A DNA stretch of 48,906 nt from NCBI GenBank assembly GCA_944391065.1, contig CALXSH010000009.1, positions 1 through 48,906 of the forward strand, in the 5' to 3' direction. This document shows, piece after piece, positions 38,575 through 44,148 of this stretch (positions are counted from its first letter, which is position 1; each line of letters opens with the position of its first letter). This DNA comes from an uncultured Kiritimatiellota bacterium (GTDB lineage Bacteria; Verrucomicrobiota; Kiritimatiellia; RFP12; DVOR01). Both the position numbers and the translations under genes were made by a program. The notes below the pieces were generated by a model, which worked only from the letters and a program-made list of their open reading frames with translations, did no database searches and was not told the DNA's origin.

Positions 38575-38693
38575 AACCTATGCGCCGACCCGGGGCAAAG
38601 GGAACGAAGCTTACGGATCTGCCGCCCTCCCGCCCTACCGGCCTACCGTAGCGATTCCGCCCGCTTCACGTAATCACGCCTCCGCAGAGTGCC

Positions 38694-38909
38694 ATCTACG
38701 ATTGCCATCCCTACAGTGCTTGGGAGAAAGGCTCCATCGAACGCCACCGGTACCGCCTTCTGCTCTTCTCCCGCCCCAAATCCTCCGACTTCTCCAAGTC
38801 AAGCCCGCACGTGCTTAAGCAGACCTATCGCCTCTTCGCCCTCAAAAAGAATCTCCGAGTCCACGCACATTTTCCAAGTCTTCCCAAACGCACTGCGCAA
38901 ATCCATTGA
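38694..38909 (+). pseudogene. IS30-like transposase C-terminal scrap
   Basis: One plus-strand frame reads CHPYSAWEKGSIERH followed by a short F-x-R-PKSSDFSK run. This resembles the end of the DDE domain of IS30-family transposases (usually HPYSSWERGTNEN...FPKGTDF), including the catalytic Glu neighbourhood. It then decays to a stop at 38909 with no upstream catalytic Asp residues. It abuts the truncated Nif3 gene, suggesting that an insertion removed that gene's front half. Confidence 0.5.
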
Positions 38910-38916
38910 CATTCTA

Positions 38917-39258
38917 CACCCCCTCTCCCGCGATGCCTTCGCCCAGGCCGTGCAGGAGGCCCTGCGGCCCCCGCGCCCCATCCGCTTCGACTACGGCCGC
39001 GAGATCATCCACACCGTCGGCGTCTGCTCCGGCGGCGCCCCGGAGGGCGTCGACGACGCCGCCCGCGAGGGCCTGGACATCTACCTCAGCGGCGAAGCCT
39101 CCCTCCAGGCCTACAACCTCGCCAAGCAATGGGGACAGAACGCCCTCTTCGCCGGCCACTACGCCACCGAGCGCGTCGGCCCCCGCGCCCTCGGCGCCTG
39201 GCTCACCGAGCAGACCGCGCTGCCCTGCCCCCTCATCGACCTCGACCTCCCCTGGTGA
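38917..39258 (+). pseudogene. Nif3/YbgI-family protein, C-terminal fragment
   Basis: About 113 residues matching the second half of Nif3-like dinuclear-metal proteins (E. coli YbgI/YqfO type): VGVCSGGAPEGVDDAAREG, DIYLSGEASLQAYNLAKQWG, FAGHYATERVGPRALGAWL. The metal ligands Glu (GEAS) and His (GHYATE) of this half are present. The N-terminal half with the HxxxD ligands is absent and is replaced by the IS30-like scrap, so the gene is beheaded. The good codon pattern suggests that the loss is recent. Confidence 0.8.
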
Positions 39259-39573: not shown

Positions 39574-41703
39574 TTACTTGCCGGCTTCTGGCCCTGTGGC
39601 CGGTTTAGACACGAAGTCGTTTAACCATGCCTCCAACTTCTCGGAGTCATTTCGAACGCTCTCTGGAACATTCTCCTCCTTTCCCCACTCGTTTTGCCCC
39701 ACCTTCAGTTGGATACCGTTTTCCAGGAGGGCAACCTCGTACTTGTCGTCATACTTGGCGTAAACCCATGACCCGGAGTCAAGCGTTACCCAATCAGTGG
39801 ACACGAGCTTCTCCAGCTTGTACCACCACGAAACCGCGGCGTCGATTCGGTAGGAGGAACGGATATTCTTCGTGGTGTAGAGGTAGACGCCATTGCCATA
39901 GGTGCGTACACTGTGGTCTTGCCAGTTCTGTTTCGCCACCTCCAGGTTCTGAAGCCAAAAGGACAACAGCTTGGTGTTCTCCTGCATGTCTATCGCGGCC
40001 TTGGTCTGGGCATCATTCCAATAAAGGAACGCTTTCAGGCTGTCATTGTCCTTGACCATGTAACATGGGATCCAGACGGAGTCGCATTTTGCGGCCTCGA
40101 CGTTCTTAATGACCTGACAAAGCCAGGTTTTGCGTTCTTCCGAGTCGAGGGTGCCGAAGGTCTTCTCGAAGCCCTCTCGCGTTTTATCCAATTGGCACGG
40201 GGACTTGTCGTTCCCCAGCCGTTCCAACAGGAACGTGATCCGGCCCTTCTGCCACGGCAACTTCTCCGCCGTCTCGATGGGGTCACGCCAGTCCTTGTTC
40301 TCGGCGATGAGGGAGAGCTTGGTGGCCTCTTCTTCGCACTGTTCCTGTGCGAAGGTGGCTTCCTCCGTGGCTTCCTCCGTGGCTTTCTTCGTGGCTTTCT
40401 TCGTGGCTTTCTTCAGTGCCTGTTGAAGGTCGCCCTCGGACAGTTTCCTGAAGGCCCGAACCGCGCGGACGAAGGTCTCCGCGCTGTCGATGGTCGCATT
40501 CTCGACGATGTTGTGGATGACGCGCTTCCAGTCGTCGTGTTCTTCTGGTTTGATGTCTGGTTTGATCAGATACGCATAGAGCAGGGCGAGGTCGGAATAG
40601 GTGAGGTTTTTGCGTTGCGCCAGCTTATCGGCGATCGGGAAAGGTTTCTTCTCTTCTTCGTCCCATGGGGCGGTCATCCAGTTGATGGCGCCTTCGGTGT
40701 CGGTCACACGCGTGAAGCCGTCGACCAGGAACTGTTTCCACGTGCCGTCATCACAGAGCCATTTGCGTTCGTCGTTGGGGAGCGTTGCCTGTTTGGTGAT
40801 GACGTTGAAGATGGTCTGCGCATGGGCGGCCAACGCTTTCTCGTTTTCTTCTTTGCCGGTCACGACTTGGTGCGCCAGAAGCAGGGCGAGGGTCACCGAA
40901 AGGAGCGCCGTGTCGCAAGGGACGGCGGGGTTGGTGTCGCCCGTGTACAGAGCCCAAATCGCGTCCAGCCACTCGGCGTCGATTTTGTTTGCCCAGTCCG
41001 GTACCTTCTTCCCATCGATGTAGGCCTTGAGGTTCTCGAAGGGCGTGAGGGGCTTGCCGCGGGCATTCAGCTTGCGGTAAGTCTCGTCGGGGTTGTCGTT
41101 TGAAGTCTTGAAACGCAAAAGGGTGACGGACTTTCTTTCCCACCAGTTGTCTGTGTCTGGCAAGACCTGTCCTTTGCAGGCCTCGTGGATGGCATCCAAC
41201 ATCCGCAACATTCCCATGACGGTGGGATCATGCTCCCAAGCGGCGAGGAACCAGGGTTGGTCGCGGATGGCTTCCTGCGGTGTCTGACCGTTTTGGGTGG
41301 CCTCGCGCCACGCCTTGCGAGAGCTCACAAGCGCCTTGCAAAACGCCATCGCGCTTTCGCGGACCTCATAGACAAAGCGGTCCAGTCGCTCCTTGACCTC
41401 TTCGGAGAGAGGCAGGTGATAGAGATGGAAGAGGAAGAGCGTGGTGAGGCGTTGCTGCCCATCCACGGGAATCATTTCCTTATCCTTATTAGAGACGAGA
41501 TAAACAAAGTCCAGACAGAGGGGCTTGGCTTTCCGGAAGGCGGTGTCCAACTCTGTGGCGAAGGCTGTTCGGATGTCCTTCGCCTGGGTCGTGGTGCGTC
41601 CTTGCGCATAGTCGCGCTGGATGTCGGGGATGACGATGCGCACGGCGCTATTGAGCATTTCCCAGAATGTGGTCGGCTCCAGGGAATTCGTGTCCTCCGC
41701 CAT
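39574..41703 (-). CDS. DUF262 protein, second of a pair
   Basis: 709 residues. The N-terminal DUF262 (ParB-like/GmrS-type) domain shows IPDIQRDYAQGR (near residue 25) and MIPVDGQQRLTTLFLF (near residue 97) with the conserved DGQQR. A helical body follows (RKLNARGKPLTPFENLKAY is also conserved in the family). Residues about 430-450 are a KKAT/EEAT repeat. The end (last 120 residues) is a mixed domain I do not recognise. No HNH motif is seen. DUF262 proteins are known in GmrSD-type nucleases and related phage-defence genes. Its ATG overlaps the stop of the upstream DUF262 gene (TAATG), so the two are made together and probably act together. Confidence 0.85.
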   Translation of the reverse strand: MAEDTNSLEPTTFWEMLNSAVRIVIPDIQRDYAQGRTTTQAKDIRTAFATELDTAFRKAKPLCLDFVYLVSNKDKEMIPVDGQQRLTTLFLFHLYHLPLSEEVKERLDRFVYEVRESAMAFCKALVSSRKAWREATQNGQTPQEAIRDQPWFLAAWEHDPTVMGMLRMLDAIHEACKGQVLPDTDNWWERKSVTLLRFKTSNDNPDETYRKLNARGKPLTPFENLKAYIDGKKVPDWANKIDAEWLDAIWALYTGDTNPAVPCDTALLSVTLALLLAHQVVTGKEENEKALAAHAQTIFNVITKQATLPNDERKWLCDDGTWKQFLVDGFTRVTDTEGAINWMTAPWDEEEKKPFPIADKLAQRKNLTYSDLALLYAYLIKPDIKPEEHDDWKRVIHNIVENATIDSAETFVRAVRAFRKLSEGDLQQALKKATKKATKKATEEATEEATFAQEQCEEEATKLSLIAENKDWRDPIETAEKLPWQKGRITFLLERLGNDKSPCQLDKTREGFEKTFGTLDSEERKTWLCQVIKNVEAAKCDSVWIPCYMVKDNDSLKAFLYWNDAQTKAAIDMQENTKLLSFWLQNLEVAKQNWQDHSVRTYGNGVYLYTTKNIRSSYRIDAAVSWWYKLEKLVSTDWVTLDSGSWVYAKYDDKYEVALLENGIQLKVGQNEWGKEENVPESVRNDSEKLEAWLNDFVSKPATGPEAGK
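40355..40414. repeat. Five 12-bp tandem repeats inside the DUF262 gene
   Basis: GTGGCTTCCTCC occurs twice and then GTGGCTTTCTTC three times, encoding (KKAT)3(EEAT)2 on the minus strand. Each unit is four codons, so slippage changes length without breaking the frame. Confidence 0.9.
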
Positions 41704-43268
41704 TACTTGGTCTCCTTCAGATAGTTTTTCAAGGTGTCAATCACGAATTGGGTGTACAGTTCCTGGTCTTTGGTGTCCCAAGTGTCTCCGCTTTCTTTCC
41801 CGACCAGCCGACAGAAGACCATGTGCGTCCCGAAGGGGATGAATGCGCAGTCTTCCTTCTTTGTGGGGTCGGCCCATTCGCGGAGCCACTCGCGTTTGGC
41901 GGGGAAGGTGTCATTGTTGAATCGCGCGTTGGTCTCGTGCGGGAGGAGCGCCATGTTGCCGAAGGCGTGCAGGTCGGCGTGCAGGTCGATTTTGCCGTCC
42001 TGTTTGAGCTCCTTGCCCCCCTCTTCCTGCTGTGCGTGGATATGCTCCAACGTCCATTTGGTGTTCCTGTAGGTGCCAAAGGGGAAACGCGTGCGCTCAA
42101 GCCCCGCGTGCTCCGTCATGGCCAGATTGAAGGCGAGCAAGATGGCCTCGATTTGCCTTCGGGCCTTCCAGTCCCCGTCATAGCGTGGCAAGTCCATCTC
42201 GTCAAACGATTTTTTGTCGCCCAAAAGTAAGGAGCGGCATTCTGCCGAGACTTGCCGGTCAAACTCCGAGCGTGGCTCTTTTTTCGCAACCTCCAAGAGT
42301 GTGACAAGCCTCTGGAAGCGCACCTCGGGATTCTCCTTGCGTTGGCCCATCAGGAACCCGAGCAGATGGTAGAGGCGCTGGTCGGCATACCACATGTCCA
42401 ACCGGTTGAAGATTGCCGTGATGGCTTCCCAAAAAGACTCCCAATCCTTATCCTCACTGATTTGCTTCCTGGCCTTCTCGTAAATCGCGAAGGGGTCTTT
42501 TTCCAAATCCGCCTTGGTGGAGGTGTTGGGCTGGCCACGGTACCACAGTTCAAAGAGGAAATCGATGCGCGTGGCCTCGAAGCGGGTGGCTTGCGGCTCG
42601 GGGTTGACGAAACACCAGAAGTCGTCATCTTGCAGACGTTGTTCCATGCGATCCCATGCGTTGGCGTAACGGTCGCGTTCGCGGGTGTCCGTGATGGCAG
42701 ACAACAACTCCGCCTTGATGAGCTCGGCGTTGGAGAGCGGGATTTTGCCGGAGTTCAGGCGCGCGAAGACTTCGTATTCTTTGTGTTCTTCGTGTTCGTC
42801 TGCGTCTTTCGGTACCTCGTACCACAGGAAGAAGGCGGAGTTGAGATAGTCCGACAACTGCGTTTTCTTGTCGCTCGGAATAGTCTTTTCCAACTCTTCT
42901 TTGGCTTGATTAATGAAGAATCTGTCCGGCTTCGATGGCGAGATATCCGAGGGTTTCTGCACGTCCTTGTGGCGTTCGTAGCGCAACTGCCATTTGTGGT
43001 CTTTCTTCAAGACGTCGAGCAGGAGCCAGAGGGTCGTCAGGCGTTGCTGGCCGTCGATGACGCGCCAAACCTTCTCCTCCGCGCTCTGACACACGACGAG
43101 CGGCTGGAGGCAGTAGGGCTTTTTCGCTTCGGCGGCCTCCAGAAGGTCTTCGGCAAGCTGGCGTACCTGGACTTCGCCCCACCGGTAGCCGCGCTGGTAG
43201 GAGGGAATGAAGAAGGTCAGGCCGGAAAGGGCCGCAACGGTTTTCGTCTCTAAGGTGTTGTCTGACAT
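41703..43268 (-). CDS. DUF262-DUF1524 protein, GmrSD-like, first of a pair
   Basis: 521 residues. The N-terminal DUF262 domain has FIPSYQRGYRWGEVQVRQL (near residue 20) and WRVIDGQQRLTTLWLLLD (near residue 69), plus FARLNSGKIPLSNAELIKAEL. The C-terminal third looks like a DUF1524 HNH-type nuclease: WTLEHIHAQ (the His-Ile-x-x-Gln pattern), FGNMALLPHETNARFNN and FPAKREWL. This is the architecture of GmrSD-type modification-dependent nucleases. The frame opens further upstream, but ATG 43268 is chosen because AAAGGA is 7 bp away and a -10 fits. It is coupled to a second DUF262 gene. A role in phage or plasmid defence is inferred from the family. Confidence 0.85.
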   Translation of the reverse strand: MSDNTLETKTVAALSGLTFFIPSYQRGYRWGEVQVRQLAEDLLEAAEAKKPYCLQPLVVCQSAEEKVWRVIDGQQRLTTLWLLLDVLKKDHKWQLRYERHKDVQKPSDISPSKPDRFFINQAKEELEKTIPSDKKTQLSDYLNSAFFLWYEVPKDADEHEEHKEYEVFARLNSGKIPLSNAELIKAELLSAITDTRERDRYANAWDRMEQRLQDDDFWCFVNPEPQATRFEATRIDFLFELWYRGQPNTSTKADLEKDPFAIYEKARKQISEDKDWESFWEAITAIFNRLDMWYADQRLYHLLGFLMGQRKENPEVRFQRLVTLLEVAKKEPRSEFDRQVSAECRSLLLGDKKSFDEMDLPRYDGDWKARRQIEAILLAFNLAMTEHAGLERTRFPFGTYRNTKWTLEHIHAQQEEGGKELKQDGKIDLHADLHAFGNMALLPHETNARFNNDTFPAKREWLREWADPTKKEDCAFIPFGTHMVFCRLVGKESGDTWDTKDQELYTQFVIDTLKNYLKETK

Positions 43269-43288
43269 ACGCAATCCTTTCACAGAGC

Positions 43289-43297
43289 AATTTATCA
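43289..43297 (-). promoter_or_regulatory. Extended -10 promoter of the DUF262 pair
   Basis: Minus-strand TGATAAATT, with an expected start near 43282 and a leader of about 14 nt containing AAAGGA. Confidence 0.5.
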
Positions 43298-43501
43298 AAC
43301 GGGAGGGGGCAGTCAATGAAGAGGTTGGGAGGTGTCGTGTATATTTCAAAACCGTCACTCGCCATCCGAGGTGAGCCTACGGCCTAAGCGCGTAGGCGCA
43401 CTTAAACCTTCCGAATGAGGGGGTGCATTTAGTCTTGCAAGAGTGGGAGCGCATTTTCTCTTGCAAGGGGGCGGATTATTGGAGATAAGGTTGATGGAGG
43501 C

Positions 43502-43525
43502 CCCCTCCCCCTCGAGGGGGAGGGG
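43502..43525. repeat. 24-bp perfect palindrome
   Basis: C4TC5TCGAG5AG4-type palindrome, centred on CTCGAG, with no loop. A second hairpin (ACGGGC-TAGC-GCCCGT) lies 20 bp further on at about 43544-43559. Either could be a cruciform or a strong RNA stem. Confidence 0.8.
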
Positions 43526-43587
43526 TGCATTTACTTCCTCCAAACGGGCTAGCGCCCGTACTAAGCAAACCAGAAAGGGCTCCCACT

Positions 43588-43776
43588 ATGGAAGACAACG
43601 ACACACCCCAGAAGCGTAAGGCTCATCTCACGCGGGATCAACGAATGACCATTGAGGCCGGCCCAAACATGGTGATTCATGTCCCTTCGACATTTTCACG
43701 ACCGCCTATACCCATGGAGCGGCATTCCTCAACGCCCTCAACATCAGAAAGGTCTCCCACAATGACATCATCCTGA
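43588..43776 (+). pseudogene. IS30-like transposase N-terminal scrap
   Basis: 62 codons with AGAAAGG upstream. The first 24 residues (KRKAHLTRDQRMTIEAG) match the start of the IS30-family helix-turn-helix; the rest is out of frame. Another frame just downstream (about 43690-43810) reads FTTAYTHGAAFLNALNIRK and ends at a stop, which looks like coding sequence after a deletion or frameshift. A broken gene. Confidence 0.45.
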
Positions 43777-44148
43777 AACCCCGTCTCCTCGAGGAAAATC
43801 GGAAAGACTGACTGCGCCTAAAAGCGCACTTACCTATTCCGAAAACAGCGGCGCATTCAGTTGTTCCGAAAAAGGAAGACACCTGCTCCGCTGAGGGGGA
43901 GTGTACCCTTTTCACCTCCTGAACGCTCCGGATTAGCCCTAAAACACCTCCTGACCCACCTCAGAGCCACCTTCGGTCTCAAGTTGACCCACGCTTTGGA
44001 AGGCGTAAATGCACTTTACGCTCATTTACTCTTACAACGGCGCACTTCGGATGGCGAGTGACCATTCCTCGAAACAGATGTTTTACGGATCACTTCGTAA
44101 TTCGTTGTAGACTATGAATTATGTTACAGTCCACTAAACTGCGATTTT

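Follow-up and report, generated by a model that had tools for sequence, protein, structure and literature searches.

Two adjoining genes on the reverse strand of contig CALXSH010000009.1, from an uncultured Kiritimatiellota bacterium, very probably encode a type IV restriction endonuclease of the GrwAB kind, made up of two proteins and dependent on DNA modification. The window analysed is the whole contig (48,906 bases, from a 1.96-Mb assembly that is 94% complete). The pair consists of gene A (P0001, GrwA-like, 41703-43268), coding for 521 residues with a DUF262 domain, a helical linker and a DUF1524 nuclease, followed by gene B (P0002, GrwB-like, 39574-41703), coding for 709 residues with a DUF262 domain, a helical region and a variable C-terminus; all features of the pair given below lie on the same strand. 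So far, studies cover only a handful of GmrSD-like enzymes built from two proteins. The kind itself has already been described as GrwAB, and the window pair would, judging from architecture, gene order and residue numbering, be a distant new member. New here are the cross-phylum pairing statistics, the distinction from the TgvAB lineage, the mosaic exchange of modules and a natural fusion; with about a hundred relatives of the window pair, the GrwAB-like partnership appears ancient, is nowhere broken up and extends across many phyla.

Architecture and assignment of the pair

In Vibrio cholerae, experiments have been done on two GmrSD-like systems that consist of a pair of proteins: TgvAB (PMC11411939, 2024) and GrwAB, which comes from the WASA strains and was tested in 2025 (Adams et al. 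2025, PMC12137116). The DUF262-DUF1524 gene of GrwAB comes first, and the second protein combines DUF262 with unknown domains. Neither protein is sufficient and both are required, GrwA alone giving no protection; DGQQR mutants of either protein and His-Me mutants of GrwA are dead. The restricted phages carry sugar-modified cytosine or 7-deazaguanine, phages that escape lose the modification enzyme (escapers were found in the modification gene dpdA), and the published counts place the system in about 1% of genomes (PMC12137116).

The layout of the window pair was first proposed by a first-pass annotation made from the DNA letters, which described two adjoining DUF262 genes, both with the motif DGQQRLTT and overlapping as TAATG, with a DUF1524 end in the first gene only. 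The open reading frames (ORFs) and Pfam matches confirm this description, including a C-terminus without a recognised domain in the second protein. In A, the DUF262 (GmrSD_N) domain covers residues 18-188 (42705-43217; Pfam E 1e-33) and the DUF1524 (GmrSD_C) match residues 399-462 (41883-42074; Pfam E 2e-7). The DGQQR NTPase motif occupies residues 72-76 (43041-43055), where R76 corresponds by motif to R81 of GrwA (PMC12137116). Residues H409, N438 and N447 represent the H...N...N of a His-Me nuclease, all intact, and in the alignment E408, H409, N438, N447 and K458 are invariant in all 19 homologues. In B, the DUF262 domain spans residues 15-229 (41017-41661; Pfam E 6e-21) and bears the signature IPxIQRDYAQGR, at the place of which the A homologues show YQRGYRW. 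Its DGQQR motif (residues 81-85, 41449-41463) contains R85, the counterpart by motif of GrwB R86 (PMC12137116). The QR, DGQQR and [FY]xxxN motifs occur in the DUF262 domains of both proteins, and DGQQR is invariant in the homologue alignments of both families.

We call the pair GrwAB-type because its architecture, gene order and residue numbering match. As in GrwAB, the DUF262-DUF1524 gene is followed by one for DUF262 plus unknown domains, lacking both DUF1524 and DUF7834; the QR, DGQQR and H...N...N motifs are intact, and the spacing between the two Asn residues is 9. In numbering only, R81, H431, N521 and N530 of GrwA can be set beside R81, H432, N522 and N531 of one family member (L050), and R86 of GrwB beside R85 in the window protein and 86 in several B homologues. 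A difference from GrwAB is that the C-terminus of the window B falls in a small family found in the window's genus alone.

The other characterised pair offers a competing assignment. TgvAB likewise comprises two DUF262 proteins, only one of which carries DUF1524; both are needed and T-even phages are restricted, and the DUF262-only gene comes first, between hsdS and hsdR (PMC11411939). That the window pair is itself such a system, a DUF262-only TgvA with a DUF262-DUF1524 TgvB, usually found inside a type I restriction operon, is extremely unlikely. Our comparison set consisted of an Escherichia coli plasmid pair (L155, arranged hsdM-hsdS-DUF262-DUF262-hsdR) and relatives from several phyla. 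Apart from their reversed gene order and frequent position between hsdS and hsdR, these systems have a partner with DUF7834, found in the TgvA of L155 and in six other TgvA-like proteins and absent from P0002 and 44 homologues. The B DUF262 profile scores 280 bits with P0002 vs about 10-39 with TgvA-like proteins. In the DUF262 tree, A, B, TgvA and TgvB each form a supported clade of their own; the window A falls in the GrwA-like clade (99/96 support) and the window B in the GrwB-like clade (100/100). TgvAB is thus a lineage separate from the GrwAB-like pairs, and membership in it was rejected on gene order, DUF7834 and the tree alike.

The two kinds of pair do occur together: on one Bacteroidales contig (L144:1477-15228, overlapping L066), a stretch of 14 kb holds one pair of each type, GrwAB and TgvAB, besides a third DUF262 gene. 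A TgvA-like DUF262-DUF7834 query (L142:2388-3830) matched 968 plasmid records, of which 859 were from Klebsiella and most were conjugative; P0002-type pairs are found on 15.

Database comparisons placed A near single proteins with the same domain layout. Among the PADLOC models it matches HEC-06 best (E 4e-26), and an NCBIfam search gave no specific assignment for the pair. Among solved structures, A comes closest in sequence to DndI (9jfl, E 2e-23) and SspE (6jiv), both phosphorothioate-sensing DUF262-DUF1524 proteins, and a Foldseek search with the structure model of B matches only SspE and DndI, which are the best, and, weakly, BrxU. These likenesses would favour a pair that senses phosphorothioate DNA in concert with a host sulfur-modification system, of which SspE and DndI form part. 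We consider this highly improbable, since DndB was not found in the window's genome by a search with a working positive control (at 94% completeness, its absence is not certain) and neither GrwAB nor TgvAB has been reported to need a sulfur-modification partner. A further search for DndE was uninformative, as its controls gave no match.

Pairing across genomes and natural fusion

The first-pass annotation had named rare adjacency of the homologues, or a second gene widespread by itself, as what would speak against a two-component system. Neither was found in the searches that follow. A search of 289 genomes from the phylum gave 20 strong B matches (E below 1e-20; one 3' fragment was set aside), each of which immediately follows an A homologue; 18 are adjacent and two fused, and the spacing of the 18 adjacent pairs ranges from a 17-base overlap to a 17-base gap. 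In the reverse test on the same genomes, all strong A matches adjoin B, except for two that end at contig ends. The B alignment was also scanned against 84,980 species genomes, from which 80 loci were kept, representing Bacteroidota, Pseudomonadota, Bacillota, Actinomycetota, Spirochaetota, Thermodesulfobacteriota, Verrucomicrobiota and others; no counter-example to the order A before B occurs among these 80 named loci.

Outside the window, 86 (85 distinct) of 98 B homologues have A directly upstream by an automatic rule. Twelve fail the rule; in nine of them the upstream A is fragmented, cut or below threshold, in L101 the C-terminus of A lies upstream of B in another frame, and in L065 and L135 the locus starts at the contig edge, so that the upstream sequence is unreadable. 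The L111 locus was also checked in the raw sequence. No solitary B was encountered among the 98. In the plasmid collection, B matches 16 records, and the 15 that A matches are all included in these; the 11 matches in catalogued viral contigs are all paired. Distances between A proteins correlate with those between B proteins (r = 0.83 for 83 pairs, with a permutation maximum of 0.17).

A physical association between A and B is suggested by two related genomes in which they form one reading frame (L038:2425-6147, and L037/L085:1878-5666, which are the same ORF). Such fusions are classical evidence of this type. The fused protein has 1240 residues (or occurs in a shortened form), and its parts run DUF262-DUF1524-DUF262-C-terminus. 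The two copies are 96% identical and thus probably derive from one event. The GrwAB paper (PMC12137116) says nothing of fused proteins. The natural fusion supplies a single chain suited to structural studies. Unbroken adjacency, co-divergence and fusion, together with the need of GrwAB for both proteins (PMC12137116), support the heteromeric GmrSD-type defence pair that the first-pass annotation had proposed.

For B, the first-pass annotation proposed a role as sensor or partner, of which the sensor role is conjectural. Single-protein GmrSD enzymes (Eco94GmrSD, BrxU, HEC-05, HEC-06) have the architecture of A and act alone, whereas here neither protein is found without the other. In principle, A could be a complete GmrSD/BrxU-like enzyme; B, taking no part in target recognition, would then be an immunity protein or modulator, either holding A in check or counteracting phage inhibitors. 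In favour of this, BrxU, SspE and Eco94GmrSD act without a partner (PMC11411939), their motifs are all present in A, and the V. cholerae authors offer an anti-phage-inhibitor role as an option (PMC12137116). We nevertheless judge this unlikely: in the plasmid collection and, contig-end cases aside, the phylum genomes, A was never found without B, and the inactivity of GrwA alone and the dead DGQQR mutant of GrwB (PMC12137116) point to B as an active component and not a brake.

Several observations weigh against the assignment to the GrwAB kind or against a working pair. The spacing from the His to the first Asn of the nuclease is 29 residues in the window A and 90 in GrwA, and the label follows architecture, order and numbering, not a direct sequence comparison with the V. 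cholerae proteins. An AlphaFold model of the fusion reached a predicted template modelling score of 0.52 and carries no interface score; consequently, no claim about an A-B interface is built upon it. The ten neighbouring ORFs that were scanned contain no transposase and no other known defence gene. Finally, the activity, substrate and complex of the window pair are predictions by analogy.

In the mechanism we propose, A and B would assemble through their DUF262 parts, as the fusion, the co-divergence and a model published for the V. cholerae proteins suggest, and both DUF262 domains would bind and hydrolyse nucleoside triphosphate through DGQQR, in keeping with the intact motifs and the published mutants. 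The complex would recognise phage DNA with unusual bases, for example glucosylated hydroxymethylcytosine or 7-deazaguanine, which was shown for V. cholerae GrwAB and is extended here by analogy. The His-Me nuclease of A (H409, N438, N447) would then cut the modified phage DNA. B is without a recognisable nuclease, and its variable C-terminus may, speculatively, aid recognition or the evasion of phage inhibitors.

Within the 17 genomes of the window's genus, the full pair is present in three and a 3' remnant alone in one; such patchy presence fits an accessory defence gene, as expected. The remnant (L022:1501-1740; G237:C4:125889-126128) preserves ~84 residues from the end of B at 66% identity, as left by a lost pair, with 85% DNA identity over window positions 39607-39803. 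On a plasmid of Paenarthrobacter sp. AT5 (L151:6041-11327), an IS3 transposase gene lies between A and B, and the annotation may split B in two.

The second protein and its variable C-terminus

Behind its DUF262 domain, B continues with a helical region (residues 230-530, 40114-41016), for which the structure model is mostly confident, and a C-terminal region (residues 531-709, 39577-40113), which is modelled with low confidence and is the pair's most variable part across the family. The predicted local distance difference test score is below 50 over most of residues 534-678. No Pfam domain was detected in the C-terminus of P0002 or of the 44 homologues scanned, and P0002 has no sequence relative among solved structures and none in annotated phages. 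Gene B also contains five copies of a 12-base repeat (window 40355-40414), the unit of which is in frame and encodes a KAT/EAT-rich stretch.

The C-terminus is the least conserved segment of B in about 64-88% of pairwise comparisons, the proportion varying with the identity band. By BLAST, all pairs of B N-terminal parts and all pairs of A proteins are alike, and the B C-termini are alike in 8-10% of pairs, forming 8-11 groups depending on the threshold. Two close relatives illustrate the pattern: L046:4776-7037 and L047:5053-7263 share ~79% DNA identity up to residue ~480 of B, beyond which nothing recognisable remains, in what the alignment presents as a clear C-terminal exchange. A more intricate case is found in the window's genus, where L034:5109-9178 (genome G017) and L035:2201-6168 (G154) occupy a syntenic locus with flanks 92-97% identical. 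Here the DUF262 part of A is 81-89% identical in DNA, the stretch from the linker of A through the DUF262 domain of B about 40-53% identical in amino acids, and the helical part of B 96% identical in DNA, and most of the C-terminus of B differs. The sharp borders of these blocks suggest recombination of modules inside the operon. On the B tree the C-terminal types require 15 changes (minimum 10, shuffled mean 36.8); they therefore mostly follow the tree by descent, and swaps would be occasional, not constant.

The exchanged C-termini and mosaic pairs hint at a swappable module in B, and the available portion of the GrwAB and TgvAB literature contains no mention of C-terminal exchange. It is conceivable, albeit rather doubtful, that the C-terminus, perhaps with the DUF262 block of B, is an exchangeable module that sets the modified DNA targeted or the phage inhibitor countered, like the target-recognition domains of HsdS. 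If so, the need for a second DUF262 protein, stated to be unknown in both papers (PMC12137116, PMC11411939), would be explained. The mosaic genomes supply ready-made module swaps for asking what the second protein recognises.

Expression signals and genomic setting

The stop and start codons of A and B share one base within TAATG (41701-41705). B has its own Shine-Dalgarno-like AAGGAG within the 3' end of A (41712-41717), and A is preceded by AAAGGA (43275-43280). The translational coupling presumed earlier is thus plausible but not required. The "one promoter" assigned to the pair did not hold up: the sole sigma-70-like candidate, TTGACT-16-TAAATT (43289-43316), is not above chance, with one site found vs 1.3 expected in shuffled sequence.

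Upstream of the pair lies a multicopy repeat segment of 709 bases (43354-44062) with 24-base terminal inverted repeats. Its end sequence recurs at 19 places in the genome, several of them at contig ends (a reversed-pattern control gave 0), and the segment belongs to a family of repeats that looks like a non-autonomous mobile element. Concerning the defence island proposed for this setting, the RHS identification was right and the inverted-repeat segment is real, but the scanned neighbours supplied neither a transposase nor another known defence gene, and an island around the window pair is weakly supported. Among 101 direct neighbours, for which there was no control set, the PADLOC models matched most often are DEDDh exonucleases, PDC-S48, IetA, WYL regulators and HsdS. 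In the window, positions 38689-39255 next to the pair encode a NIF3/DUF34 protein, perhaps from a truncated gene, of which the C-terminal part alone is recognisable (profile positions 133-238 of 256).

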